DNA of 64,000 nucleotides from Litorivivens lipolytica (GTDB lineage: Bacteria; Pseudomonadota; Gammaproteobacteria; Pseudomonadales; Spongiibacteraceae): assembly GCF_014191715.1 (NCBI RefSeq), contig NZ_JACHWY010000001.1, positions 930,001 to 994,000 of the forward strand, read 5' to 3'. Under the pieces are notes generated by a model that worked only from the letters and a program-made list of their open reading frames with translations, had not been told where the DNA came from and did no database searches. A program made the translations under genes and the position numbers. Of this stretch, positions 1,339 to 17,830 are shown piece by piece (positions within the stretch are counted from its first letter, which is position 1; each line of letters begins with the position of its first letter).

Positions 1339-2391
1339 GTGTTACCCGAATTGGAGAACTGGGCCCACAACGCTCTGGCTGTACTGCTGATCACGCTTTT
1401 CAGCTGCGCCCCATCCCTCGCACAGCCGCCTGTTACCGATATGGTCGGCAGTGGTGAAAATTTGCTTTCACCCGGCAGCGGTGATCCCGGTCAGGGCGCT
1501 GATGTTTTTGGTATTACCGACCTGATCGGCAGCGAAACTGGAGACTCCAATTCCGGACTCAGCGCCGATAACGGCTGCGAGGGTTTTCAGTGTGACCAGA
1601 CGACGCTGTTTGAACTACCGGGGCTCGAGTCTGAAGAAAGCCGTGAGAACGCCGAAACCGGCGAGTGTCGCGACAGCGACAAAGATGGCGTCTGTGACAC
1701 TCGCGATGCCTGTCTAGGCTCCCCCGCCTCAGCACCGGTTCTGGACAATGGCTGCGGCCTGCAACCCGGCAACCCCATTATTCTTAGCGGCGTTCGTTTT
1801 GCCTCCGGCAGCGCACAGTTGAACACGGCGGCCAAAAGCTCACTGAGTTCAATTATCAGTTTGATCAAATCCAGCGAGGCGCCACACATTGTTGTCGAAG
1901 GTCATACTGATGACAACGGCAGCGAGGAAGCCAACCTCGCTCTATCAGAAGCGCGGGCAAAAGCGGTCTACCAGTATTTGATCAGCAACGGCATAGCGGA
2001 AAACCGACTCGCATTCGTCGGCCGTGGCGAAGCCTTTCCTCTGGTCCCTCACCGCACCAGTAGTGGACAGCGACTTCCCGGCGTGGCCGAGATCAATCGC
2101 CGCATGGAGCTGACCGTCACTGCCCCGGAAACGTTTGCCGCTTTACGTACCGCCATGCGCGAGCGCGAGCAGCGTCGTCAGGAGAAAATCGCGCAGGAGG
2201 CTCGCCTTCGTGAGGAAAAAGCGGCCCAAATACAAGCGGCTAAAGAGCGTGCTGAAAGCGCCGAGGAAAGCTACGACGAAGTGCTGGAGTTTCTAGAAGA
2301 AACCGGCACCGCCTCACGCGACGACGAAGGCGAAGCCGAGGATTACAGCGACCCCGGTTACACCCTGGAAGTCATTAACCTGGAAGAATAA
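1339..2391 (+). CDS. OmpA-family protein with TSP3-like calcium repeat and C-terminal coiled coil
   Basis: Starts at GTG 1339; a TGA lies two codons upstream in frame, so no longer form exists. Residues 11-29 form a signal peptide ending SLAQ. Residues 111-127 are one TSP3-like acidic repeat (DSDKDGVCD), a probable calcium-binding loop. Residues 148-260 form an OmpA/MotB C-terminal domain with the EGHTDDNG and SEARAKAV motifs and NRRMELTV, which in this family bind meso-diaminopimelate in peptidoglycan. Residues 265-320 are charged and predicted coiled coil, followed by an acidic tail. The downstream barrel gene is in the same frame, separated by one TAA and seven codons, which suggests the two work as a pair at the envelope. 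Transport partner or receptor role is not shown. Confidence 0.85.
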   Translation: MLPELENWAHNALAVLLITLFSCAPSLAQPPVTDMVGSGENLLSPGSGDPGQGADVFGITDLIGSETGDSNSGLSADNGCEGFQCDQTTLFELPGLESEESRENAETGECRDSDKDGVCDTRDACLGSPASAPVLDNGCGLQPGNPIILSGVRFASGSAQLNTAAKSSLSSIISLIKSSEAPHIVVEGHTDDNGSEEANLALSEARAKAVYQYLISNGIAENRLAFVGRGEAFPLVPHRTSSGQRLPGVAEINRRMELTVTAPETFAALRTAMREREQRRQEKIAQEARLREEKAAQIQAAKERAESAEESYDEVLEFLEETGTASRDDEGEAEDYSDPGYTLEVINLEE

Positions 2392-2412
2392 AGCGAGCTA
2401 TACACTTATCTC

Positions 2413-4071
2413 ATGCCAATAGATCTTCCCCCGAGCTTACCGCCCAGCCTGGAAAACCCCTCCAGCGTGATCGACGAGCAACGCAGTCGCGGCGCCTATA
2501 TTCGCACTGTGGGCGACTTTTCCGTACAGGTAAGTGGTGATCACTATCTCAGCTTTGACGAACTCGAAGCGATATTCGATAAAGCCCGCACTCCATCGGA
2601 AGCCATCCTGCTAATGAACGACCAGACTCGCCAGAAAGGTCATTGGCTGGTCGAGTATCTCTATGCCCGCCCGGTGAATGGGATCGTGCATGTACTGGCG
2701 ATACAAAAGCGTCTCGGAGAGATCGAGGGCGACGACGCAATCACCCATTTCTTCAGCGGCTTGGAAAATACCCCTTCACTGAAACGCCATGAGTTTTTGC
2801 GTCGCCAGATTCTGGCCAACCAGTATTCCCGACGAACCGGACGCGATTACTCAACAACCTATTCTTCAGCAAATGCAGGGGCCTTGAATATTCAGCTCAA
2901 CGAAAAAGCCAGCAGCAAGCGAAAACGCTGGCGGGGCAGCTTACAACTCGGCAATCAGGGCAACCGTTTTGTTGGCCGATACTTTGCGGATACCGCATTG
3001 AGCTACACCTTTTCTCGTGGCACCCAGTTGCAGGCACGTCACCAGCGCGCTATTCCCGAATGGGGCGAAACCGGTGAAGGCGAAGATTACAACAGCAATC
3101 GCCTCAGCATCAGCCACCCCTCGCGCTGGGGCATTTATGAACTGGAAGCGAGCCACTCAGAATACACCCGAAATATCACCACACCCGCCACTGCCGGCAG
3201 CTGCTCCGCCGCCCTGTTTGGCGGCGTGTGTTTGAGCAGCACACCGGGGCAAGCGGCCAGCAGTGAATCTTTCGATGCCACCATACAAACCGTGGCAATC
3301 AATGCCCAACAACTAATCTCGGCGGATACCGATCACCGCTGGACACTGCAACAGCGTCTTGAATATATCGATTCCGAACTTTCCAACCGGAGCCTGACAC
3401 CGCAAGACGAGTCCTACACCGCACTGGAAATCGGAACACGCTATGAGGCGCTGACACCCGTCGCCGGCAAAGCGCTTAACTGGCGGATCAGCCTGCATAT
3501 CGATCACGGCCTCAGCAGTGATAGCGGAACGTTTGCTACCGCCCCGGAATCACCCAGTGTCGCCATCGGAAAGCGCACTGCAGAATTCACCACGGCGAAA
3601 CCGAGTTTCTCCGTCATCTACCCCATTACTGAACATTGGGAAGCAGAACTGAGCGCGCAGGCCCAACTCACCAACGATCAACTGCCTCAGCAACAGCAGT
3701 GGGTACTCGGGGGCACCTCGCGTCTGCATGCCTACCTGCCCGGCGTGCTGGTCGGCGACAGCGGCTACCATGCAAAGGCCTCGCTGAAACGTAAATGGTC
3801 CATCAATGACGATGTAACACTGAGTGCCAGCGTGTTTTATGAAGCAGGCGCAGCAGGCTATGAAGATGTACAACTCGGCAACAGCGAAGACGTGGATCTC
3901 AGCCAATACAGCACACTGCAGGACGCCGGCCTGAGCGCATCAATACGCGCCGGTGATCACCTTGAACTTACCGCCGTCGCTGCAGCACCCACCGCAGACA
4001 GTAATATCAGCGTAGATCACATAGAAGCTCAGGAAGCGGACTTCTTTATCGTACTAAAAGCCAGCTTTTAA
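2413..4071 (+). CDS. ShlB/FhaC/HecB-like two-partner secretion transporter (TpsB-like barrel)
   Basis: The protein has 552 residues. The N terminus is proline-rich, followed by about 100 residues that could be POTRA-like (FDELEAIF, LVEYLYARPVNG), then a long beta-rich region from about residue 165 ending in FIVLKASF, with a C-terminal Phe typical of Bam-assembled barrels. Residues 430-450 (LGGTSRLHAYLPG, VGDSG) match the conserved GG..R..Y..G..GD.G motif of the TpsB barrel. TpsB proteins export large adhesins or cytolysins across the outer membrane; no TpsA partner is in the window. It is odd that no signal peptide is visible and that the ATG at 2413 has only a weak ribosome site. The frame continues unbroken back to the TAA of the OmpA gene, so expression may be coupled or the two may once have been one protein. 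Confidence 0.65.
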   Translation: MPIDLPPSLPPSLENPSSVIDEQRSRGAYIRTVGDFSVQVSGDHYLSFDELEAIFDKARTPSEAILLMNDQTRQKGHWLVEYLYARPVNGIVHVLAIQKRLGEIEGDDAITHFFSGLENTPSLKRHEFLRRQILANQYSRRTGRDYSTTYSSANAGALNIQLNEKASSKRKRWRGSLQLGNQGNRFVGRYFADTALSYTFSRGTQLQARHQRAIPEWGETGEGEDYNSNRLSISHPSRWGIYELEASHSEYTRNITTPATAGSCSAALFGGVCLSSTPGQAASSESFDATIQTVAINAQQLISADTDHRWTLQQRLEYIDSELSNRSLTPQDESYTALEIGTRYEALTPVAGKALNWRISLHIDHGLSSDSGTFATAPESPSVAIGKRTAEFTTAKPSFSVIYPITEHWEAELSAQAQLTNDQLPQQQQWVLGGTSRLHAYLPGVLVGDSGYHAKASLKRKWSINDDVTLSASVFYEAGAAGYEDVQLGNSEDVDLSQYSTLQDAGLSASIRAGDHLELTAVAAAPTADSNISVDHIEAQEADFFIVLKASF

Positions 4072-4090: not shown

Positions 4091-4843
4091 ATGGCGCAAA
4101 TTGCCCAATTGACCTACTACCCCGTCAAAGGCCTGCAGGGCATTTCGCTTGAGCGTGTTCAATTAACCGAAAACCGTGGTTTTCCTGCCGACAGGCAATT
4201 CGCCATTGCCGACGAAAGTACGCCCTTCGATCCGAGCGAGCCCTGCCATCTCAAAAAACAACAGCTGGTCGTGCAAATGAAATACGAGCGACTGGCCCAG
4301 CTTAAAACGGGCTTTGATCCGCTGACCACGGAATTGACACTTTCGTCAAACGGCAGCACCTCTATCTTCGCACTGAGTAATTCGGCGGGAAAGTCGGAGT
4401 GCGAAGAGCATCTGACCAATTTCATGCAAGGGCTGATCAAAGGCAAGGCTCGGCTAATAAGCGCACCGGGTATCAGCTATACCGACCTTTCAACGCCCTG
4501 CATTTCCCTGATCAACCTCAATAGCGTAAAAGCACTAGAGAAAGCGCTAGGCTATCCAGTAGACCACCGACGCTTTCGCGCCAATATCTACTTGGATGAT
4601 TTACCCGCCTGGGAAGAAGAAACGTGGCTGAATAAAACCCTGACGATTAACGGCACGGAATTCCTCGTTTACAAAATTACTGATCGCTGCACGGCGATAA
4701 ATGTTAACCCGGAAACTGCAGCGCGCGATCAAACGCTTCAGGGTTTGAAGCGACAGTTTGGGCATTTGAATATGGGGGTTTATGCGAAGGTGATTAAAGG
4801 CGGGGAAATTCGAGAAGGCGACAGCATTAGATTGAGGCAATAA
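4091..4843 (+). CDS. MOSC domain-containing protein (YcbX-like)
   Basis: This 250-residue cytoplasmic protein starts with an MOSC N-terminal beta-barrel segment (YYPVKGLQGISL, NRGFPADRQFAI at residues 9-40). The MOSC core at about residues 120-250 ends in CTAINVNPETAARD, LKRQFGHLNMGVYAKV and IREGDSIRL. In YcbX and mARC relatives the conserved Cys (DRCTAINV) ligates the molybdenum cofactor, and these enzymes reduce N-hydroxylated compounds. The GAGG ribosome site is 7 nt before the ATG. It lies 19 nt after the barrel gene and is probably transcribed with it. The moaCDE genes at 49-50 kb make molybdopterin. No YcbX-type ferredoxin domain is fused at the C terminus, so an electron donor must come from elsewhere. 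Confidence 0.85.
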   Translation: MAQIAQLTYYPVKGLQGISLERVQLTENRGFPADRQFAIADESTPFDPSEPCHLKKQQLVVQMKYERLAQLKTGFDPLTTELTLSSNGSTSIFALSNSAGKSECEEHLTNFMQGLIKGKARLISAPGISYTDLSTPCISLINLNSVKALEKALGYPVDHRRFRANIYLDDLPAWEEETWLNKTLTINGTEFLVYKITDRCTAINVNPETAARDQTLQGLKRQFGHLNMGVYAKVIKGGEIREGDSIRLRQ

Positions 4844-4876
4844 AAAAGGAGGCCGAAGCCTCCTTTTCTTTTTTTT
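4844..4876. terminator. Bidirectional rho-independent terminator
   Basis: A perfect stem AAAAGGAGGC with a short CGAA loop and GCCTCCTTTT is followed by a T-rich run on the plus strand and preceded by A residues, so it can stop transcripts from both sides. It begins right after the MOSC stop codon and overlaps the stop of the converging outer-membrane gene. Confidence 0.88.
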
Positions 4877-6059
4877 AGAACAACCAGGAGATTGAAACTG
4901 CCGTCAGATCAAACTCTTGATCAGGCACGTTCGACAAAGTTGGAATAAACTCCACATCTCTGGTTTCTTGTGCAATATCGAAAACGAGATTGCCGTGTTT
5001 AATACCAAAACCGATTGAGCTAGCTTCAATACTATCAACCATAGATGTTTCCGGATTACCGCTGACATCAATATCTGTATCGCTCATACCAAAGCGAACA
5101 AACAGCGAGCCTGCACCCATGAACTCTGGGAACATCTGCCATTCCAAACCAAAAGCAGTGCGCTCTTCCTCAAGGTCTCCTTCAGCGTTACCCGTAGTAT
5201 TCACAGTAAGCGCGTTGAGGATGTCCTCATACTCAAGATTATCGATTTCATAATTGAATGTGATAACTGAATTCATGCCCATGATCGCTGGCAAGGGAGC
5301 CATATAGCCAATACCATAGTTCAGCGCTTGAGGACGACCCGGAACGCCTTCTACAGCGTCAAAAGTCACATCGTCTTCGACTTCACTATCAGTTCCAGAT
5401 CGGTAAATCAGTCCATAAGTCAGCTTATGTCCCTTCGGAAGCACATCATCCAGAGGCGCTTTACCTTGCAGGCCCAGCGAGAAGCCAATTTCGTTCTCGT
5501 CTAATTCGTCCTCTTCGCCAGTGTTGATATTCTTGATATCAGCAAACCGGAAGAGCCAATCAAGAGTGAAACCAAAATTAATATTCTCGCTTAGTTCGAA
5601 GCCCATCCCCCACTTCAACTCTCGGTAATCTGTTTCAACATCGGCCGCATTTTGCGTCCCATTTACGTTGTAAAACGCCGAATTCTTGAATCGATATGGG
5701 GAGAAATATGCAAAACCCTGCTGATTCTTTGCAAATGCGAAGTACTTCAGCGTATTTGAGGAATCGTAAAGATCACCGCATGGGCCGCCTGAGCAAGTAT
5801 TTAGAAACTCGTTCGTATCAATCCGTTCTACGAGCTCACCAATCTCCAGAGTCGCGTCACCAGAATCCTTAATTTTTGCTAAACCAGCGGGGTTGTACCA
5901 AAGCGAGCTACTATCCCCAACGTTAGCAACGAACGCGCCGCCCATACCCATCGCGCGAGTACCCGGCGTATTAAAGTACTGCTCCAAAGCAAAGCTATTG
6001 CTCGCCCCCAAAGTCGCACCAGCCATCAGGCCGGCAGCAAGAAGTTTTTTGTTTTTCAT
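4875..6059 (-). CDS. FadL/PorV-like outer-membrane beta-barrel protein
   Basis: The protein has 394 residues. Signal peptide at residues 1-24 (MKNKKLLAAGLMAGATL, ending SFA). Next comes the family hallmark GTRAMGMGGAFVANVGDSSS followed by WYNPAGLA, as in the OmpP1/FadL/PorV superfamily of N-plugged 14-stranded barrels. The rest alternates polar and hydrophobic residues and ends in SISWLF with the C-terminal aromatic used by the Bam machine. FadL-type proteins import hydrophobic compounds, while PorV-type proteins serve secretion; the sequence does not decide. It is the last gene of the caspase/LPP20/transglycosylase unit, 28 nt after the transglycosylase, and ends in the bidirectional terminator. 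Confidence 0.75.
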   Translation of the reverse strand: MKNKKLLAAGLMAGATLGASNSFALEQYFNTPGTRAMGMGGAFVANVGDSSSLWYNPAGLAKIKDSGDATLEIGELVERIDTNEFLNTCSGGPCGDLYDSSNTLKYFAFAKNQQGFAYFSPYRFKNSAFYNVNGTQNAADVETDYRELKWGMGFELSENINFGFTLDWLFRFADIKNINTGEEDELDENEIGFSLGLQGKAPLDDVLPKGHKLTYGLIYRSGTDSEVEDDVTFDAVEGVPGRPQALNYGIGYMAPLPAIMGMNSVITFNYEIDNLEYEDILNALTVNTTGNAEGDLEEERTAFGLEWQMFPEFMGAGSLFVRFGMSDTDIDVSGNPETSMVDSIEASSIGFGIKHGNLVFDIAQETRDVEFIPTLSNVPDQEFDLTAVSISWLF

Positions 6060-6087
6060 TGTCGTTCTCCTCAGTTATCGCTGTAGC

Positions 6088-7359
6088 TTAGGTTTGTGAA
6101 GCTTTTTTATAGCCTTCCGCTCGGCGGACGACTTTTTTCAGGTAATTCTGTGTTTCCTCGTAAGGCAGGTTTTTAATCAGATGATTGTAGACTTGTTCTG
6201 GTGACATTTTGTTGATGATCTTTGCCGCCTGATTAACGTTTCTTTTGCCCGTGAATGCCTTGGCGACATTCCCTGCCCCCGTATTGTACGCCGCTATAAC
6301 ACAGTAATAGCGACTCAATGGGTCTTCTATTTTTTTCAAATAGCGATTATTCAGAATCCACAGATAGGCGGCGCCCAGCTCTATATTCTGATCAGGGTTG
6401 TATAGAGCTGAAGGTGCCAGCAGAGTCTGCTTCCCATAAACATATTCCGTTGCGTCCAAGCCGGCCGTTTTGGGAACGATTTGCATCAAACCGTACGCCG
6501 GAACGCCAGAACGTGCCATCGGATTGAAGGCAGACTCCGTTTGGATCACTGCCAATACTAGGCTGGTTTCCAGATCTCTACGCTGAGATTCAGCCACGAT
6601 ACGATCAGCATAGGCTTCCGCACGCGCAGGCATCGCTACAGCACCCGCATTTGGTCTGGATGCTTTCTTACTCTTCAGAACCTTGGAAATATCTACGCTG
6701 GCGGTAACAGCCTTACCGTCCTGAGAGCGTTTTAATTCCAATTTGCTGGCGAGCTCTTTTACCCGCTTCTCCAGCAATTCAGCTTTCTTTTTGTCCGCAG
6801 AGCTCAAACCAAAAATCGAGCTATTCGGTACCTTGCTGGTTTTTGCCTTAACACCTTCACGCTTGATACGCGCTTCAACAGCACTGGCAAATTGATCAGT
6901 TTCAAACGCGCCCGAGACCGTCGTGGTCAGTACCTGACGAATCTGGTCCTCAAACTTTTTAACCGCGGCTTTCTGATTCGCCTGTACACCCTGCGCGGAG
7001 ATCGTCAGCGTATTACTCTCGAAGTCGACCGCTCGCTTCACGGCGTAGTCTTGCGTGTAAGACACCCAGACTTTCTGAGAACTGACTTCCGGATCAGGCC
7101 AACGTTTTTTGATCGCCTTCTTGTAGTTATCTAATTCTTCTTCAAAAATCTTGCGGTAGGCGGCAAATTCTTCCTGTTGACGCTTCTTGTAAAGCTCGAA
7201 CTCAGTAGGTTTCTTTGTGGAAGCCTCGACACTGCGCTCTGCAGCCGAATCTAGCTCCCCAGCTTCCCGCTCGAGCTCTCCCCAAATATCTGCTGTCGTG
7301 ACAGGCGCCGCTGGCAAAATCGCCAGCAGCGCTGTCAGCAGTTTTGCGCTTCGCTTCAC
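6088..7359 (-). CDS. MltC-like lytic transglycosylase (N-terminal DUF3393-like plus SLT domain)
   Basis: The protein has 423 residues with a signal peptide (residues 1-23, no lipobox Cys, unlike E. coli MltC). Residues 50-160 resemble the MltC N-terminal domain (FELYKKRQQEEFAAYRKIF, WVSYTQDYAVKRAVDFE). Residues 245-415 are a family-1 SLT domain: catalytic Glu275 in the TESAFNP motif, AYGLMQI at 289-295 and AAYNTGAGNV at 356-365. Such enzymes cleave the MurNAc-GlcNAc bond to give 1,6-anhydro ends. It is probably periplasmic. Its start lies 1 nt after the stop of the LPP20 lipoprotein, so it is co-translated in the orthocaspase unit, placing peptidoglycan cleavage in the same pathway as a protease-fold protein. 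Confidence 0.88.
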   Translation of the reverse strand: MKRSAKLLTALLAILPAAPVTTADIWGELEREAGELDSAAERSVEASTKKPTEFELYKKRQQEEFAAYRKIFEEELDNYKKAIKKRWPDPEVSSQKVWVSYTQDYAVKRAVDFESNTLTISAQGVQANQKAAVKKFEDQIRQVLTTTVSGAFETDQFASAVEARIKREGVKAKTSKVPNSSIFGLSSADKKKAELLEKRVKELASKLELKRSQDGKAVTASVDISKVLKSKKASRPNAGAVAMPARAEAYADRIVAESQRRDLETSLVLAVIQTESAFNPMARSGVPAYGLMQIVPKTAGLDATEYVYGKQTLLAPSALYNPDQNIELGAAYLWILNNRYLKKIEDPLSRYYCVIAAYNTGAGNVAKAFTGKRNVNQAAKIINKMSPEQVYNHLIKNLPYEETQNYLKKVVRRAEGYKKASQT

Positions 7360-7360
7360 C

Positions 7361-7945
7361 TTACTGAGCCGTCAGCTCATCCAGCTCATTGTGCGCTTTG
7401 AAAGCTTTAAATTCCTCGTAGAGGATTGCTTCGTTTTGCGCGCTCAGGTTGGCATCAGCTTCTTTCATCAGATCATTAAATAGATCTTTCGTCAGCGATG
7501 GGCTCATGGTCACCATGACACAATATTCCGGCTGACCATCAATACCCATGACATATTCAGCTTTCACCGCGCGAGTACCGGAGAGATTCTGGTTAGCTAC
7601 AGTTTTGGAGACACTTTCAAAGGAAGAACCGAAGGAATCGCCGGCAGATGCTTCAGTCAGACGCTGATAGGTTTTATCCAGCGCCGTCGCTTTAACTTCA
7701 ATTTGACGGGCAATTTCAGCACGAGCTAATGCCGTCGCTTTGGCCTGCATAATGCTGGAAGAACCTTTCTTGGCAACGCACTGAGTGCTCGCAAGACCAT
7801 CTTCAACCATCGGCAGCTTTACCCAATCCGGGCGATTATCGTAAGGCGCCGCGTTGCTTGTCTGAGCGGTCTGTTCTGGTGCACCTGCGCAGGCTGCCAA
7901 CAAAACACTTGCTGCCAGGGAAGCTGCTTTAACTGCTGTTTTCAT
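7361..7945 (-). CDS. LPP20-family lipoprotein
   Basis: The protein has 194 residues. A type II signal peptide ends in LLAAC (lipidated Cys19). The mature part starts with a polar linker, then PDWVKLP and an LPP20-type core: a Cys followed by KATALARAEIARQI, then YVMGIDGQPEYCVMVTM. LPP20 proteins (Helicobacter Lpp20, Vibrio FlgP) are outer-membrane lipoproteins of poorly known role. The last 40 residues are helical and charged. It sits between an uncharacterised LPP20-like secreted protein (21 nt upstream) and the lytic transglycosylase (1 nt downstream). No flagellar genes are near, so a FlgP role is not supported. Confidence 0.8.
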   Translation of the reverse strand: MKTAVKAASLAASVLLAACAGAPEQTAQTSNAAPYDNRPDWVKLPMVEDGLASTQCVAKKGSSSIMQAKATALARAEIARQIEVKATALDKTYQRLTEASAGDSFGSSFESVSKTVANQNLSGTRAVKAEYVMGIDGQPEYCVMVTMSPSLTKDLFNDLMKEADANLSAQNEAILYEEFKAFKAHNELDELTAQ

Positions 7946-7966
7946 AATATTCTCCTTGAGTGAGTT

Positions 7967-9010
7967 TTATTGAGCAGTGTTCTCGAGTAATTCAACTTCT
8001 ACAATATAAGGTTTGTCCACGCGCGGCGTGATAGACAATCTCGAAAGGCTTGCCGAAATGCGGTGATGACTGGATAGCGAAACAGCTTCCATCGAGTATC
8101 CTCGACCGGTGCTTTCCCCGGATACTGTTTTTTGTAATGATTTGACGCGAACATCTTTGTTCTGCGCCAATTCAGCATAAGCCCTGTGAATTGCCAAATC
8201 AATAACGGATTGCAGTGTGCCAGCGGCCGTATAGGCAGAAACGGTAGCTTTTCCGCGCAGCGCATTGGAATTTGCGTAGCGCTTAAATTTCTGACGATCT
8301 TCGTAGAGCCATCGTTGAAATAACGTTGCCCCATCACGGCAACTTTCCATCAAGGTGAGTGGCGGCAAATCTCGATTGTTAGTTTCAACAGAAATCGTAT
8401 GATCAATAAAGCTAAGATATTGCTGAGCCGCCGCCGTACGCAATAATCGATATTCCGAGCTGACATCAGCAATGCCCCAGTACGCAGCCGTTTCACTGGC
8501 AGATTTAGCCGCATCCAGCCATTGCTGCTTGTCGGAGATGCGCCATTCACCTACACCAAGCACATTGGTGCTTTCAGCGTCGGATGACTGCCCGCACAGC
8601 CACTCAGGCTCGCAGCGCTGACTACTGCACGTTGAGGCCACACATGTATCGTCCGAATGGTCGCCAGTGACCAAATAGGAGAAGACTGCGCCCCGCCCGA
8701 CGTAGTCGGACGTGAAATCAAAATGACGCCCTTCAACATCAATACCTGCAAACTCAAGCAGCGCATCGTCGTTTTGGAATTTTTCAGGGAGTGTGGCGCC
8801 ATCAACTGCAAACAGTTGTCGCAATGCGGAACGTCGGCTGGCCGCGATGGCAAGGCTGCCAGCCGCATCAAACTTTTCGGCTACGCCTATGTAACCTTGA
8901 TACTCGTTCGTGACCGGTTGCGAGAGCCAGCAGGGCTCCGCAGCAAGTGTCGATGTCACCAGCAGGCCGCACATCGACAAACTAGCTTTAAGGATCGGTC
9001 CGAGCCTCAA
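7967..9010 (-). CDS. Secreted protein with LPP20-like repeats, 347 aa
   Basis: A signal peptide (residues 1-24, ending TLAA) is followed directly by PCWL. The mature protein seems to contain two LPP20-like units: YIGVAEKFDAAGSLAIAAS near residue 40 and LGVGEWRISDKQQWLDAAKS near residue 150, each a short Gly-rich strand followed by a helix. Five cysteines between residues 115 and 140 probably form disulfides. It lacks a lipobox, so a periplasmic location is likely. The first 23 nt overlap the 3' end of the upstream DUF4384-like lipoprotein gene, indicating translational coupling. I cannot name a function; the shared fold with its two neighbours suggests gene duplication inside the unit. Confidence 0.65.
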   Translation of the reverse strand: MRLGPILKASLSMCGLLVTSTLAAEPCWLSQPVTNEYQGYIGVAEKFDAAGSLAIAASRRSALRQLFAVDGATLPEKFQNDDALLEFAGIDVEGRHFDFTSDYVGRGAVFSYLVTGDHSDDTCVASTCSSQRCEPEWLCGQSSDAESTNVLGVGEWRISDKQQWLDAAKSASETAAYWGIADVSSEYRLLRTAAAQQYLSFIDHTISVETNNRDLPPLTLMESCRDGATLFQRWLYEDRQKFKRYANSNALRGKATVSAYTAAGTLQSVIDLAIHRAYAELAQNKDVRVKSLQKTVSGESTGRGYSMEAVSLSSHHRISASLSRLSITPRVDKPYIVEVELLENTAQ

Positions 9011-10148
9011 GTGTAGACACCCCTATCGGGTCAACAAAATCAAACCAGCGAAGAAACTGGTCGAACTGATAGTAATCATCGCCCGCCAGAAAACCGCCCT
9101 GGCTTTCCAGCTTGGCGAACTCAGACAGCACAATCGGGTTCTCAGTCAGCACACCGATATATACATCGTAAGTGGTTTTGCCGTCTTCCAGCACGAGTGA
9201 GGTAAAGGTGCCCCCATCGGGATACTGAAATGCGCTGTTATTATCAACAAAACGGTTTTCCAACAAATTGGCAATTCGCCCGTCTTCATAAATATTAAAC
9301 AGCGAAAAGTAACCATTGCGGCGGGACGCGACTCGGAAGCTGAAATCGTCGCCGTGCCTCAGCCTGACACTGCGAGCAAAACGAAAATCTGCTGGCGGCC
9401 GCGGCGCTTCACCAGAGGCAATATCAATATCCAGTGCTTTGACGGTGCCGGCAAAATCCGGCGCTATAAACGACAGGAATTTGCGATCTGCCACAGTGTA
9501 CGTGGCACTATCGTTCACGCTAAGCACCCAGCGATTGTTCTGACGCTTGAGATCAATCACAACCGTTTTCTCTAGCGTGCTGGTGTCGCGCTCCAGCTTT
9601 TCTCTCAATTCGGATACGAAATGAGAATTCACCAGAATGGACGGCCCTTTAAACTGAATGGTTCTTGGAAGATTGCCCTGCCACTGGCGAGCGAGATCGG
9701 AATAAACCTTTTGTACCAGAGGCCGTTTGTCGAGCTGATAGACAACGTAGACTTTGCCGCGGGGATCATCAATATCGCGACACAACTCAACCGCGTTATC
9801 GATAGCGACATCGGACTCGATCGACACATCCTGATCAAAGGTCTGAGACTCATAATCATCGATCGCGCGCGTCGTGCTTTTGGTGGTCACAGACACCCGG
9901 CTGGAAAGTTTCTGTGCAATTTCGGACAAGGCTAATTGGCGTGCTTTGCTTAGCGATTCACCGACACCCACGCCAACGACAAAGTGATCGGTATCGCGAG
10001 GTGTTTTATCAATACAGAACGAACGGTATTGCTGCTCCGCCTGTGTTTCAGACGAAACCTCAGACGCCTCTGAACCCTCCGGCAGCAGGCCACAGGACTG
10101 AATTAGAAGCGTGCTTGCAAACAGAAGTGCGCCAAAAAGCCTTTTCAC
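8988..10148 (-). CDS. Lipoprotein with LPP20-like and DUF4384-like domains
   Basis: The protein has 386 residues. The lipobox LIQSC gives lipidated Cys19. Residues 43-150 form an LPP20-like domain (VVGVGVGESLSKARQLALS, VYVVYQLDKRPLV). Residues 250-345 resemble DUF4384: LRHGDDFSFRVASRRNGYF followed by LFNIYEDGRIANLLEN. To my knowledge DUF4384 is often fused to bacterial caspase domains; here it is a separate gene 9 nt downstream of a caspase gene, which links the two functionally. It is the second gene of the unit and overlaps the next by 23 nt. Location is probably the periplasmic face of the outer membrane. No catalytic residues are evident. Confidence 0.75.
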   Translation of the reverse strand: MKRLFGALLFASTLLIQSCGLLPEGSEASEVSSETQAEQQYRSFCIDKTPRDTDHFVVGVGVGESLSKARQLALSEIAQKLSSRVSVTTKSTTRAIDDYESQTFDQDVSIESDVAIDNAVELCRDIDDPRGKVYVVYQLDKRPLVQKVYSDLARQWQGNLPRTIQFKGPSILVNSHFVSELREKLERDTSTLEKTVVIDLKRQNNRWVLSVNDSATYTVADRKFLSFIAPDFAGTVKALDIDIASGEAPRPPADFRFARSVRLRHGDDFSFRVASRRNGYFSLFNIYEDGRIANLLENRFVDNNSAFQYPDGGTFTSLVLEDGKTTYDVYIGVLTENPIVLSEFAKLESQGGFLAGDDYYQFDQFLRWFDFVDPIGVSTLEARTDP

Positions 10149-10157
10149 TCGCCGCCC

Positions 10158-12254
10158 TTACTTCAAGACAGCAAGAGGCTTGGATTTTTGGCCACTGAGC
10201 CCGGGGGTCTGATTACTTCCTTTGTCGGTCTGATCAATATATTCGGCCACTTCGTAGCTGACAAAACTCTGAATCTCTTCCGCGCTCACAACGCCGTCGT
10301 TGTTGCCTTTCACCCAGTTATCCGCCTTGCCACGCAGTGCGCGCAGGAAGTTGTAGGTAAACAGGCCATGACGACTTTCTTTATGCCAGTAACTGACTTC
10401 GCTGGCCGAAGCACTGGTAAACAGCGTGAGATTGTCGATGTTGCCAGGATTCAGCTCATTGGTTTTAAAAGCCGCCGGGCTAACGCCGGTATACAGTGCT
10501 TTGGTGCGCTGACCGTCGGAGGTGTCCGTATTACCCGAAAAGCAGGAGTCCAGCACCAGCGTTACGTTATTGGTAGGCAGCGATTTAATAGCCGCGTACA
10601 GATCTTCGAGCGGATAGCCCTGCTGGTCGAGTCGTTCCATCTGCGCATCAACCGGCACCAAGTAAGCCTTACCGTCTTCCAGTCCAGGCGCGCCGTGGCC
10701 GGAGTAGTAAATAAAGACCGGCGGATTCGGCTGTAGCTCGGAATCCCGCTTGACCATCTTGTACAGGTCGCCGTCTTTGAATTTCTTGTCTTTGGTTCCG
10801 AAAATATCACGCAGACCAAAGGTGCCTTCATTCAGGTACAACTTGGTCTTTTGAAAGCCAAGCGTTTTCTTGGCGTACTGAGCCACAATATTGGCGTCGT
10901 TTTCCGCGTAATCCACGGCATCCAGATTGCTGTATCGGCTATTGCCGACCACGAAGGCCCGACCGAAGCGAATCTGTTTTGTCCCCGTGGGAATATCGGT
11001 ATCTACCGGCTCAATCGCAATACCTGCCAAGGGAGCCGCTACAGCAGCCGGGGCCTGAAAGCTGTTGCCCGCGTAACGCTGCGGCGCACTGCCGGCCGGC
11101 AGTACCATCGAATGAGCGAATTCCTGCTGAGTACTTTCATCCGCGCGATCAATCGCGCGCAAGGCAATTGGCAAGCGGTCACCGGTTTTCAGGCGATTGG
11201 TTTTGGCAAAGGTAAAGGTCACGCGCTGACTGGCATTGACCGCCAAACGACCGATAGCGCTCTCCGTATCCCCAAAAATATGGACGTTGCTATTTTCAGA
11301 GCGGACCTGAGTCACCGCATCCAGCGCGGGGCCCTTACCCTGATTTATAACCGTATAGGAAATCTCATAGATATTGCCCTTAACATGAGCCACACGCTGA
11401 TCGTGAATGGCAAACGCAGCAGGCATATATTCCTGCGTAGCAAAAGCAAATTTGAGTTCGTCCGGGATGCCGAAGCCATCGGCTTCGGTCGCGGTCACAC
11501 TCAAGTGCTCAGAGCCGGTACCAACCTTATCGGTCGCAATAACTTCGAGGGTTTCCACAATAGACTGACCGGGTGAAACATTCCCGATGGCAAGCTTCCG
11601 ACGGGTATCACAACACCCCAGCGTCACATGCTGGGAGCTGCTGAATACCGTCAGCTCTACCGATTCGGCCATGGACTGCCCTGCGTTTTCAATCGTCACA
11701 ACCGCCTTGGCAGATTCCTTAGCCGACAATACATTGTCACGGTTGCTGTCTACGAGGTCATAGCGAATGACCAGCTGAGGGGGATTGGCAAATTTTTCCT
11801 GGAGGTCCTGCTGAGCCTTTTGATCTGCCTGCTGCTGTTCCCAGGCAACCTTGCGCTCTTGCTCTATACGCGCCAACTCATTGCTGACGTAGCCCATATA
11901 GCGATTGGGGTAGTAATCGTAGGCCGTAGAATCAGAAACGATTCGACGTTCGAGGCCTCGCGGGGTCTCCACCCACTCAACCTGCTGATCTTTGACAATG
12001 CGAATCTTGCCGTCAGAGGAATACAGTTGCAGAGCACGCGAAAGATAATCACGCGCAGCCTGATAGTCGCCGGACTCGTAATTTTTCTTGCCCTTGCGAT
12101 AGAGACTCAAAGCACGTTCTTCTTTGGAACCGCTTTCTTCTTCAGCCTTGTCTTTCGCCGCGCCGAGTAACGAATCAAACAACCCAGCCTGTACCGGCCC
12201 GGCAAAGCAGAAAGCCAGAGTCAGGTATGCCCCACACCACCACGCTTTTTTCAT
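10158..12254 (-). CDS. Secreted caspase-fold protease (orthocaspase, peptidase C14) with TPR and EF-hand-like loops
   Basis: I start at ATG 12254 (698 aa) because it opens a clean signal peptide (MKKAWWCGAYLTLAF, ending VQAG); an earlier in-frame ATG at 12308 adds 18 polar residues. Order: TPR-like helix pair at 47-80; coiled coil at 125-155; an EF-hand-like loop at 169-180 (DSNRDNVLSAKE); two Ig/CARDB-like beta domains at about 185-385; a caspase domain at about 428-645 with the catalytic dyad His520 (YYSGHG) and Cys571 (LDSCFSG); and a second, degenerate EF-hand-like loop at 649-660. Metacaspase relatives cleave after Arg or Lys and often need calcium. Secretion to the periplasm is unusual for this family. 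It heads a six-gene unit with LPP20 proteins and a transglycosylase. Confidence 0.9.
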   Translation of the reverse strand: MKKAWWCGAYLTLAFCFAGPVQAGLFDSLLGAAKDKAEEESGSKEERALSLYRKGKKNYESGDYQAARDYLSRALQLYSSDGKIRIVKDQQVEWVETPRGLERRIVSDSTAYDYYPNRYMGYVSNELARIEQERKVAWEQQQADQKAQQDLQEKFANPPQLVIRYDLVDSNRDNVLSAKESAKAVVTIENAGQSMAESVELTVFSSSQHVTLGCCDTRRKLAIGNVSPGQSIVETLEVIATDKVGTGSEHLSVTATEADGFGIPDELKFAFATQEYMPAAFAIHDQRVAHVKGNIYEISYTVINQGKGPALDAVTQVRSENSNVHIFGDTESAIGRLAVNASQRVTFTFAKTNRLKTGDRLPIALRAIDRADESTQQEFAHSMVLPAGSAPQRYAGNSFQAPAAVAAPLAGIAIEPVDTDIPTGTKQIRFGRAFVVGNSRYSNLDAVDYAENDANIVAQYAKKTLGFQKTKLYLNEGTFGLRDIFGTKDKKFKDGDLYKMVKRDSELQPNPPVFIYYSGHGAPGLEDGKAYLVPVDAQMERLDQQGYPLEDLYAAIKSLPTNNVTLVLDSCFSGNTDTSDGQRTKALYTGVSPAAFKTNELNPGNIDNLTLFTSASASEVSYWHKESRHGLFTYNFLRALRGKADNWVKGNNDGVVSAEEIQSFVSYEVAEYIDQTDKGSNQTPGLSGQKSKPLAVLK

Positions 12255-12436
12255 TGTTCTTGTCCGATCTTCTTGACCTGAATGCCCGCTTAACCGCAGA
12301 CACAGCAATGCGTTAACTGTATCACAATTAACCCAAGGGTGTGCATATTACCAAAAGCCATATGCCGAGCTTAACGCTTTGAATTGTATGAATAAACAGT
12401 AAATATAATATATTTTTAGTAAATCGGAGCAGAAAC

Positions 12437-12466
12437 AAAAACGGCCCACCCAAAGGTGAGCCGTTT
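12437..12466 (-). terminator. Rho-independent terminator after tRNA-Val
   Basis: On the minus strand, AAAACGGCTCACC pairs with GGTGGGCCGTTTT around a TTTG loop (one small bulge), followed by TTTTGTTT. It lies 10 nt beyond the encoded CCA end of tRNA-Val. Confidence 0.8.
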
Positions 12467-12476
12467 TCGCGAATAT

Positions 12477-12553
12477 TGGTACGACCGAGTGGACTCGAAC
12501 CACCGACCCCCACCATGTCAAGGTGGTGCTCTAACCAGCTGAGCTACGGTCGT
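12477..12553 (-). tRNA. tRNA-Val(GAC)
   Basis: The tRNA is 77 nt including an encoded CCA. The acceptor stem ACGACCG pairs with CGGTCGT, discriminator A. The D-arm has AGCTCAGCTGGTTAGAGC, and the anticodon stem CCACC/GGTGG encloses loop TTGACAT, giving anticodon GAC (Val). The T-arm contains GGTTCGAGTCC. It is transcribed alone with its own promoter and terminator. Confidence 0.97.
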
Positions 12554-12835: not shown

Positions 12836-14860
12836 TTATTCAACAAACAGATCGCGCTTAATATCCGCCAATCGATCCCGAACCCGCGCAGCCTCTTCAA
12901 ACTCCAGATTCTTGGCGTGCTCGGCCATTTGCTGCTCCAGATTCTTGAGCATTTTGGAGAGTTCAGCCGGTTTCATGGACTTCACATCAACTGCATAATC
13001 CCCACCGGGCTCCGCCGCCTTGCGAGCACCGCCCTTGCGACCGCGCTTGCTACCGGGCGCGAAGGCCCCCTCCAGTATATCCGCAACGGCTTTTTTCACA
13101 CCGGCAGGCGTTATGTTGTGCTCTTTGTTAAAGGCCACCTGCTTCTCGCGACGGCGATTAGTCTCACTTATGGCCCGCTCCATGGAGCCTGTCATCACAT
13201 CGGCATAGAGAATCGCCTTACCGTTGAGATTTCGAGCCGCCCTACCAATAGTCTGAATCAAAGACCGCTCAGAGCGCAGGAAACCTTCCTTGTCCGCATC
13301 CAGTATCGCGACCAGCGACACCTCAGGCATGTCCAGACCTTCTCTCAGCAGGTTAATCCCCACCAACACATCAAATTCACCTAAACGCAGATCGCGAATG
13401 ATTTCGACACGCTCAACGGTATCAATATCTGAATGCAAGTAGCGCACCCGAATACCATTCTCGCCAAGGTACTCGGTCAAATCCTCTGCCATGCGCTTGG
13501 TTAGCGTGGTGACCAGCACCCGCTCCTCTGCAGCAACCCGCAGATTGATTTCAGACATCAAATCATCCACCTGCGTCGCTGCGGGTCGGATTTCCACCTC
13601 AGGATCCACCAGCCCCGTGGGCCGCACCACCTGCTCCACCACCCGCGCTGCGTGCTCAGCCTCATAGGGGCCAGGTGTTGCCGATACAAATATGGCCTGT
13701 GGGATCAAGCGCTCCCACTCCTCAAACCTCAGGGGCCGGTTATCCAGTGCCGAGGGCAGCCGAAAGCCGTAGTCCACTAGCGTTTCCTTTCGCGAGCGAT
13801 CGCCCTTGTACATGGCTCCTATCTGTGGAATCCCCACGTGAGACTCGTCGACAACAACCAGCGCATTGTGCGGCAGGTAATCAAACAAGGTCGGCGGCGC
13901 CTCCCCCGGCTCCCGCCCGGACAGATAGCGCGAGTAGTTCTCAATGCCAGTGCAATAGCCCAGCTCGCGGATCATCTCCATATCGAACTTGGTGCGCTGC
14001 TCCAAACGCTGGGCCTCCAGAAGCTTGTCGTTGTTGCGCAGAACTTCCAATCGCTCTTTTAGCTCTTCTTCAATCTGATCGACCGCTTTCAGCAGCGTAT
14101 CGCGCGGTGTTACATAGTGACTCTTCGGGAAAACGGTATAACGAGGCAGCTTGCCTAGCGACTCCCCCGTCAGCGGATCAAACAGCGTAATGCTTTCAAT
14201 CTCATCATCGAACAACTCAACCCGCACCGCGTCTTTTTCAGATTCTGCCGGGAAAATATCTATTACATCCCCCCGCACACGGTAGGTCGCCCGCTGAAAA
14301 GCCACATCATTGCGGGTGTACTGCAACTCCGCGAGCCGGCGTAGCAACTTGCGCTGATCAATCTGCTCGCCCCGATCTAGGTGCAATACCATCTTGAAGT
14401 ATTGCTCGGGGTCACCCAGACCATAAATGGCCGACACCGTCGCCACAATCAGCGCATCCTCGCGCTCCATCAGTGCCTTGGTGGCAGAAAGACGCATTTG
14501 CTCAATATGATCGTTAACCGACGCGTCCTTCTCTATATAGGTATCGGACGAAGGAACGTAAGCCTCTGGCTGGTAATAATCGTAGTAAGAGACGAAATAC
14601 TCGACCGAGTTATTGGGGAAGAACTCTTTAAACTCGCCATAGAGCTGGGCCGCGAGGGTCTTATTGGGCGCCATGACAATGGTCGGCCGCTGAATCGCCT
14701 CAATAACATTGGCAATGGTGAAGGTTTTACCTGAACCGGTGACACCCAGCAGGGTCTGCGAATGCAGCCCCGCATTGATCCCCTCCACCAGCTGCTCAAT
14801 AGCTTTTGGCTGGTCTCCGGCGGGCTCAAACTTGGATGAAACCGTGAAAGATTTGCTCAT
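12836..14860 (-). CDS. uvrB: UvrABC excinuclease subunit B
   Basis: UvrB is the damage-verifying helicase-like subunit of nucleotide excision repair; it is loaded by UvrA and recruits UvrC. The 674-residue protein has full family length. Visible motifs: the Walker [11 protein letters not shown] at about 39-48, the beta-hairpin [12 protein letters not shown] near 92-103 that inserts into DNA, the Walker B region [18 protein letters not shown], the helicase motif QTIGRAARN, and a C-terminal UVR motif ([14 protein letters not shown]) that contacts UvrC. The start [21 protein letters not shown] is canonical. I see no clear LexA box upstream, so SOS control is not shown. Confidence 0.98.
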
Positions 14861-16042: not shown

Positions 16043-17830
16043 ATGTCTTACCGACAAAGCCTATACTCCCTAATCCTGACGCTCCTTATTGTCATAACTC
16101 CGTTATCGCTTGCAGCAGCCCCTTATGAAATAGGCGGCAGACTCAATATTGAAGGTTTTCGTGTCTTTGTCAGCGACAAGGGCTTTGGCGAGGATTTTGC
16201 TGACGTTAATCTCCACATGGCGACAAAAGTCTGGACCCTGCTTGGGGAGCCCGTACAGATGTGCACCGGTTGGTGGGAGCTAAACGCTCTCAATGTTGAA
16301 GGGCAGCGATTTACGATGCGAGAGCTACCCACTGAAGTCGCGAACGCCATACGTATATGGGGTGGTGAATTCTGGCTTCCCTTCGACAGCAAGCAAAATA
16401 CAGGCTTTGATTACATAAAGTGTGACCCAGGGTCGTTCTGGGGGCCCGGGGTAAAAAAAGCCTCATTTAATGTCCCGGAGAGCCGTGGTTGGGATAAGCA
16501 GTTCTACACTTTTTCGATGGCCACAGGCTATGCTCTTAAATCGGCCACACCTCGCTCATCTGACTACGCGAAAAATATATTGAAACGCGGCCAAGCCCTA
16601 TTCCGCGATGAGCTTTACGGCAGCGACACGGTAAAAATCGAAGGTTTGCGCTTGGATATAGGGGCCGTATACCGCTGGCTTAACGAATATCGGGAAGCAA
16701 GCATACAAGAGCAAGAGCAATCGGTGAGCAAAAATCAAGAATCAGCCCCTGATGACTTCGATGCTCTTTTCAAGCAGGTTGATCAAGCAAAATCGTTAAA
16801 GACTACAAAGCGTGAACACTCAGGGAAAAGCACTCAGCGGCAGAGAGTTGCCGACGCAATGACAAGGTCTAGGGATAACTATGAAAAACGCATTGCATCC
16901 CGCGATTGCGGAAAGATTCCTTCCGACAGCAAGGCGTATAATAATCTTTTTACATTTATTCAAACGCAGAGGCGAGGACACCAGGATTGCAGCAAAGAAG
17001 AACTCCGGCCTTCCCGGGGAAGCAACAACCTCGTGGGCTTTAAAGATGCAGCTGGTAACTGGGCTATTCAGCCGCGATTTACACGGGTGCGACCTTTCAG
17101 CGAAGGCCTAGCAGCAGCATTGGAATATCCCTGTCGACACAAACAGTACAGCTTTAGTGATACACCTTACTGTTACTGGGGCTACATTGATCGAACAGGA
17201 CACTGGCAGATACCACCTCGCTTTCTGGAGGCTTATCCCTTCATTGATGGCCTAGCGATAGCAAGGCAACCTTTTGCTATTACCAAGGACTATCGGTACC
17301 GATATCCCTACACAATCCGCGCGTCGAACCGTGGGCAACAAAACGGATGGAGTGGCACTCGGCCGCAACCTCTGTATGGGATTATAGCAAAATCCGGAAA
17401 ATGGCACGTACCTCCAACCTATACCGACGTGTCGGCTCAATCAAGACATGCAAGACGCTTTGGCCGTTGGTTTGGTAAGTGCCCTAACAATATTAGTGGA
17501 GACGACGGTGGCTATTGTGAGATTGAACGTAACGGCGTCGTTGCATTTATGCCCCTTGGACCTTACAGCCAGATAAAATTAATGGAGCGCGGCTACCTAT
17601 TTTCGGACAAATTTGAAGATAGCGACTTTGGAGCCATTGTATCGATGTGCCAAAAGATGGGCCTTAAAACCTTTATTCCGGTACATGAGTATAAGATACA
17701 ACGCGAACTCAATATCTCCGAACTTCCGTCGAACGACAAGCGATGGCAGCATTATCGGAGCGACAGAATCTCCCCTATCACTGGCGAATACGGAAGCTAT
17801 CTAAAACAAGTACTGTGCACTTGGGAATAA
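16043..17830 (+). CDS. Secreted WG-repeat protein
   Basis: The protein has 595 residues with a signal peptide (residues 1-25, ending LAAA) and an AAAGGAG ribosome site. Residues 26-230 are an uncharacterised domain rich in Trp and Gly (CTGWWELNAL, IRIWGGEFWLP). Residues 230-300 are a charged, probably coiled linker. From about residue 328 there are WG-type repeats: VGFKDAAGNWAIQPRF, YWGYIDRTGHWQIPPRF and YGIIAKSGKWHVPPTY. In known proteins these fold as beta-strand pairs and often mediate binding. The later part is Cys-containing. It lies between two uncharacterised secreted proteins on the same strand, in the AT-richer islet. No enzyme motif is visible. Confidence 0.75.
   Translation: MSYRQSLYSLILTLLIVITPLSLAAAPYEIGGRLNIEGFRVFVSDKGFGEDFADVNLHMATKVWTLLGEPVQMCTGWWELNALNVEGQRFTMRELPTEVANAIRIWGGEFWLPFDSKQNTGFDYIKCDPGSFWGPGVKKASFNVPESRGWDKQFYTFSMATGYALKSATPRSSDYAKNILKRGQALFRDELYGSDTVKIEGLRLDIGAVYRWLNEYREASIQEQEQSVSKNQESAPDDFDALFKQVDQAKSLKTTKREHSGKSTQRQRVADAMTRSRDNYEKRIASRDCGKIPSDSKAYNNLFTFIQTQRRGHQDCSKEELRPSRGSNNLVGFKDAAGNWAIQPRFTRVRPFSEGLAAALEYPCRHKQYSFSDTPYCYWGYIDRTGHWQIPPRFLEAYPFIDGLAIARQPFAITKDYRYRYPYTIRASNRGQQNGWSGTRPQPLYGIIAKSGKWHVPPTYTDVSAQSRHARRFGRWFGKCPNNISGDDGGYCEIERNGVVAFMPLGPYSQIKLMERGYLFSDKFEDSDFGAIVSMCQKMGLKTFIPVHEYKIQRELNISELPSNDKRWQHYRSDRISPITGEYGSYLKQVLCTWE

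Follow-up and report, generated by a model that had tools for sequence, protein, structure and literature searches.

The 64,000-nucleotide (nt) stretch analysed here (the window; contig NZ_JACHWY010000001.1, positions 930,001 to 994,000, of Litorivivens lipolytica, a marine gammaproteobacterium of the family Spongiibacteraceae) carries on its minus strand six open reading frames (ORFs), spanning 12254 to 4875 and separated by gaps of 9, -23, 21, 1 and 28 nt, that encode a set of predicted envelope proteins including a secreted caspase and a wall-cutting enzyme. Comparison with other genomes suggests that this operon joins two otherwise separable modules: module A, a caspase with a DUF4384 lipoprotein and often a barrel, and module B, an LPP20-family lipoprotein and a peptidoglycan enzyme (genes 4 and 5, often with gene 3). 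The features of the locus are listed here, with lengths in amino acids (aa) and the basis of each call in brackets.

12255..12476, minus strand: stretch between the tRNA-Val gene and gene 1, the expected promoter region
10158..12254, minus strand: gene 1, secreted caspase, 698 aa (Pfam C14 and CARDB)
8988..10148, minus strand: gene 2, DUF4384/LPP20 lipoprotein, 386 aa, GTG start (Pfam; orthologues)
7967..9010, minus strand: gene 3, Cys-rich secreted protein, 347 aa, TTG start (alignment)
7361..7945, minus strand: gene 4, small LPP20-family lipoprotein of outer-membrane type, 194 aa (family profile against 5ok8)
6088..7359, minus strand: gene 5, secreted MltC-type lytic transglycosylase (SLT), 423 aa, GTG start (Pfam SLT)
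4875..6059, minus strand: gene 6, predicted outer-membrane beta-barrel, PorV/FadL-like, 394 aa (sub-cut-off profiles, C-terminal Phe)
4844..4867: intrinsic terminator, a 10-bp stem with T runs, common to the operon and the convergent gene at 4091-4843

An initial annotation of this DNA had proposed a six-gene, same-strand operon whose products are all exported. Its ORF positions and gaps are exact and, with the operon's own terminator, confirm at the sequence level that the six genes form one predicted operon. The export signals are also borne out, as judged by eye only: lipoboxes are present in gene 2 (LIQS-C) and gene 4 (LLAA-C), the other products begin with ordinary signal peptides, and the barrel ends in a C-terminal Phe.

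Gene 4 alone matches the Pfam LPP20 model weakly (14.1 bits, below the cut-off). The profile of its family (A13, hereafter lpp20) matches the solved Lpp20 of Helicobacter pylori (5ok8) at E 6.3e-14 and, with the lipobox LLAAC, marks gene 4 as a predicted LPP20 lipoprotein. Gene 5 scores 97.9 bits against Pfam SLT (cut-off 21.3; E 3.6e-28) and 25.3 against Mltc_N (cut-off 22.6), its family profile matches MltC structures (9vi7/4c5f) across both regions at E 4.7e-74, and its catalytic Glu275 is invariant in ten SLT relatives. Against the curated MltC equivalog, however, it reaches only 174 bits (cut-off 375), and its sequence has no lipobox; we therefore class it as a putative MltC-type enzyme rather than MltC proper. 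The earlier description of an MltC-like enzyme thus holds for Mltc_N, SLT and Glu275 and fails for the lipobox. Gene 5 further differs from MltC, which it otherwise resembles over the full length of Mltc_N and SLT and in the catalytic Glu, by an extra N-terminal helical segment and by adjoining LPP20 lipoprotein genes rather than being encoded alone. We considered the basic linker of this enzyme as a caspase site; basic linkers also occur in relatives without a caspase, so we do not count it as evidence.

Gene 3 has six conserved Cys residues after its signal peptide and matches no Pfam family, LPP20 included. The initial annotation had spoken of LPP20 proteins in the set, and that description stands for gene 4, while gene 2 scores close to the cut-off; gene 3 is not callable as LPP20 on present evidence. 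Relatives of gene 3 nevertheless adjoin lpp20 and SLT genes in three other lineages (loci L061, L105 and L104 of genomes G041, G588 and G514).

The lpp20 family occurs in 68 of the 373 genomes of the order (18 of 303 genomes of the class with an earlier version of the profile). Among 52 loci from 27 families, found by the lpp20 profile alone, 29 have an MltC-type SLT gene or a second enzyme (tgl) within 8 kb, and in 23 an SLT or tgl gene lies within 1.2 kb on the same strand. LpoB, the outer-membrane activator of PBP1B, is within 8 kb in 19, with Pfam LpoB scores of 126-137 bits in the three neighbours checked. A wall enzyme, LpoB or both are near lpp20 at 39 of the 52 loci, in 20 of the 27 families; the chance expectation of such closeness is about one percent or less for single genes in genomes of ~4 Mb. 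The initial annotation overlooked that the operon consists of two separable modules, of which module B is on this genomic evidence widespread and usually caspase-free. LpoB itself is a neighbour of the family and absent from the operon studied here. Gene 4 is like H. pylori Lpp20 in being a lipoprotein with an LPP20 fold, predicted from the sequence profile; it is unlike Lpp20 in that its family's partner genes are wall enzymes and LpoB. H. pylori HP1457 offers a parallel: it has been described as a homologue of LpoB that lies close to another envelope gene (PMC11394524). The host genome also holds a second LPP20/CsgG-type lipoprotein cluster (L045:6506-12298, contig C4 of G000), with an LPP20-like gene at 8057-8320, lipoproteins of 206 and 136 aa and a TPR-like protein of 488 aa.

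No significant match to tgl was found in Pfam, NCBIfam or the PDB. Its DCEDR, PGH and DPTY motifs, conserved in ten relatives, suggest a transglutaminase-like Cys-His-Asp enzyme. SLT enzymes and tgl share a helical segment directly after the signal peptide, F..[YW]K..Q...F..Y......F...L...W. When a profile of this segment, built from 20 tgl enzymes, was run against 1226 ORFs from all the loci retrieved, its best matches outside tgl were the SLT enzymes (E 7e-7 to 9e-3) and a secreted caspase elsewhere in the host genome (L041; E 6e-5). The simplest reading, which we offer as a lead, is that interchangeable hydrolase domains may be carried on one docking segment. This L041 caspase (7945-9381; G000 C1 near 1603658) starts with the F..YKQQQ form of the segment seen in the wall enzymes and has three near-identical 60-aa repeats (NPCDRNTGYGC.RTVRDQQLNDIMDEDDSNFSS) ahead of its caspase domain.

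Turning to module A, gene 1 comprises a signal peptide, one TPR-like stretch, two CARDB-like domains (E 1.6e-8 over two stretches) and a C14 domain that scores 52.3 bits against a Pfam cut-off of 21.4 (E 8e-14). Its dyad, His520 in YYSGHG and Cys571 in LDSCFSG, is invariant in all five aligned caspase orthologues, as the initial annotation had anticipated, and domain score and dyad together identify gene 1 as an orthocaspase and predicted protease. Full-length orthologues are rare, being found in three genus members and, at comparable score, in none of 116 relatives otherwise. Gene 2 combines an LPP20-like N-terminal part (24.5 bits against a cut-off of 25.9, E 3.7e-5; 27.3 and above the cut-off in another scan) with a C-terminal DUF4384 part (24.7 bits, just below the cut-off of 27; E 2.6e-5). 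Its orthologues carry both domains, and its relatives match FlgO/FlgT_N weakly. Caspase-DUF4384 fusions are known, accounting for 23 of 473 proteins in cyanobacteria (PMC8283722), and the C14 domain with its His-Cys dyad and the association with DUF4384 are common ground with such orthocaspases. Here, in contrast, the caspase is predicted to be exported by a signal peptide and carries TPR and CARDB domains instead of the fusion partners, DUF4384 sits on a separate lipoprotein, and wall genes belong to the same operon. Gene 6 remains under the cut-off of every model, including Toluene_X (21.9 against 29.7; E 7e-5) and PorV_fam (31.1 against 90; E 1.8e-7), and a search of the PDB gave no match. 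Its resemblance to PorV/PorQ and FadL-type barrels is a weak, full-barrel profile similarity, and we call it PorV/FadL-like only, not a member of FadL/TodX or PorV.

Both modules, and their union, recur outside the genus. In another family of the order, four of 46 genomes hold a joined set, two found by the gene 2 profile (G176, G255) and two by the caspase profile (G761, G764); a fifth match to the caspase profile, G779, has a different caspase and was not counted. The order there is lpp20, barrel, caspase (37% identity), DUF4384 and a tgl enzyme of 457-475 aa in place of SLT. Module A occurs without module B in G429, as barrel, caspase, an anti-sigma-like zinc-finger protein and a DUF4384/FlgT_N protein, and in G625, as caspase and DUF4384. 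Within the host's own family, G012 has a nine-gene same-strand run (L153:234-10591) of SLT, a 254-aa protein, TPR, LpoB, LPP20, a 342-aa protein, PKD, lpp20 and a caspase. This caspase begins 33 bp after lpp20 and is short, secreted and unrelated to gene 1 (PF00656, 142 bits; motifs YAGHG and DACRDNP); in the sister genomes G004, G006 and G009 the same cluster lacks a caspase, and its lpp20 gene is inverted. Across 71 lpp20-bearing genomes, which hold 40 C14 genes, a C14 gene lies within 5 kb of lpp20 in five genomes against 0.12 expected; when the search's three seed genomes are set aside, the count is two against 0.10 expected (P about 0.004). The proposed link of secreted caspases, LPP20 lipoproteins and peptidoglycan enzymes is therefore not confined to the genus. 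Separately, three caspase-like ORFs lie within 8 kb of one contig (L195:1926-10012) in a distant proteobacterium, G842.

Within the genus, a second member (G001) carries the complete six-gene unit in unchanged order behind uvrB and tRNA-Val, and a third (G002) has genes 1-4 behind the same two genes, at which point its contig ends; conservation of gene order, on which the initial annotation had staked its proposal, is upheld as far as these genomes extend. Identity of the products ranges from 50 to 88%, with gene 4 the most conserved (82-88%). For the four genes that the G002 contig includes, dN/dS against this genome is 0.04-0.17 (0.02 for uvrB), so these four are under purifying selection. 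In G596, of a distant family, an lpp20 cluster (L111:8600-15805) also lies directly next to uvrB (12836-14860 in the window) and convergent with it, by chance or as an old position. At the host locus, tRNA-Val (12477-12553), followed by its own terminator-like hairpin and T run, sits between the operon and uvrB, so the operon probably has its own promoter. A scan upstream of the operon found promoter-like sites no commoner than in shuffled sequence, and no promoter was recognised. We also tried a 21-bp imperfect palindrome, GTTAANTGTNNNACANTTAAC (12312-12332, the sole copy in the genome), as an operator, and dropped it because it is absent in G001 and only partly kept in G002. Elsewhere in the window, a gene for an OmpA-domain protein lies 22 nt ahead of one for a ShlB/FhaC-type barrel resembling a two-partner secretion transporter (1339-4071), with no obvious exoprotein gene between them, and 16043-17830 encodes what looks like a secreted protein, in which WG beta repeats are the only recognised domain.

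The reading we tentatively favour, at somewhat less than an even probability, is a wall-remodelling unit anchored in the outer membrane, whose caspase would tune wall cutting by cleaving either one of the set's own proteins or a protein of the wall machinery. In module B, the LPP20 lipoprotein would sit in the outer membrane beside the secreted wall-cutting enzyme, and the enzyme's N-terminal helical segment probably serves to dock it to the lipoproteins; by analogy with LpoB and PBP1B, the LPP20 proteins may both hold and regulate the enzyme there. Because relatives of the pair sit with LpoB, the module is probably one of the means by which peptidoglycan synthesis and turnover are controlled from the outer membrane. 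Module A would contribute a periplasmic caspase with protein-binding TPR and CARDB domains, a DUF4384/LPP20 partner lipoprotein and usually a barrel; brought into place by TPR/CARDB and by the DUF4384 lipoprotein, the caspase would cut a member of the set and could in this way switch the wall enzyme. Sequence and comparison show the operon, the export motifs, the catalytic residues, the modular make-up and the recurrent linkage, whereas we infer the physical complex, the docking role of LPP20, the substrate and the direction of the effect. One precedent is MaOC1, a bacterial caspase reported to cut the product of a neighbouring gene, an antitoxin (PMC7935541). A more elaborate version, in which a periplasmic caspase gates an LPP20-anchored hydrolase complex and interchangeable lytic transglycosylase, Cys-His-Asp and caspase domains are docked to LPP20 lipoproteins by the shared N-terminal segment, we consider unlikely.

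Several observations weigh against wall remodelling under caspase control. A caspase is missing from most lpp20 loci, so the wall module works without one, and related caspases mostly lie away from lpp20. The shared N-terminal segment, with matches at E 1e-6 to 1e-2, is short, resembles low-complexity sequence and is not carried by the operon's own caspase. Structure prediction with AlphaFold gave unusable models for gene 3 (mean pLDDT 40) and gene 2 (38).

Some of these same patterns would suit co-regulated envelope maintenance, in which the caspase trims or degrades damaged envelope proteins, the SLT enzyme performs ordinary turnover and only expression is shared. Modules A and B are apart far more often than together, and the gene order of the joined set differs between families. 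However, lpp20 has been joined with two unrelated caspase types, the lpp20, barrel, caspase and DUF4384 families remain together in two families, and the near-overlapping genes suggest stoichiometric products; we regard maintenance as somewhat unlikely. The barrel prompts a different thought, since its nearest relatives are PorV and PorQ of type IX secretion: with LPP20/FlgT-like lipoproteins it could form an outer-membrane export or appendage structure for which SLT opens the wall and the caspase matures cargo. LPP20 and FlgT-type proteins are components of the outer-membrane rings of flagella, secretion systems are accompanied by dedicated SLT enzymes, and the weak FlgO/FlgT_N match among relatives of gene 2 fits this picture. 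Yet genes for an inner-membrane motor, an ATPase or cargo are missing from the operon, the barrel's scores are all sub-cut-off and the wall module is mostly found without a barrel, which makes an assembly or secretion machine distinctly unlikely.

Regulated lysis or defence, raised in the initial annotation, found no support. Here the caspase would sense infection or stress and free the SLT enzyme to lyse the cell. Bacterial caspases do act in some defence systems, and the generic caspase profile of PADLOC matches weakly (E 1.3e-4), but PADLOC gives no other defence-gene match, and the operon lies in no island or mobile context, shows purifying selection in the four genes compared and has the same uvrB/tRNA-Val neighbours in three species. 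In addition, an MltC-type enzyme serves turnover and is not an endolysin, and all products are predicted to be periplasmic, away from phage replication. We consider this explanation highly improbable and return to wall remodelling as the preferred account.

The component families of the operon are known; the union of a split caspase and DUF4384 set with an LPP20 and MltC-type set appears to be a new combination. In the open-licence literature we found no paper that connects DUF4384 to LPP20, none that connects C14 to lytic transglycosylases and lipoproteins, and none that describes the two sets together. To our knowledge, very few natural substrates of the widespread bacterial caspases have been identified, and cytoplasmic caspases account for nearly all studies. 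For the periplasmic caspase predicted here, genome comparison provides a short list of likely envelope partners together with a defined catalytic residue. The link of LPP20 to wall enzymes is the broader result: caspase aside, it connects the orphan LPP20 lipoprotein family with LpoB and with peptidoglycan enzymes in many gammaproteobacterial families, and so makes a function for LPP20 proteins directly testable.

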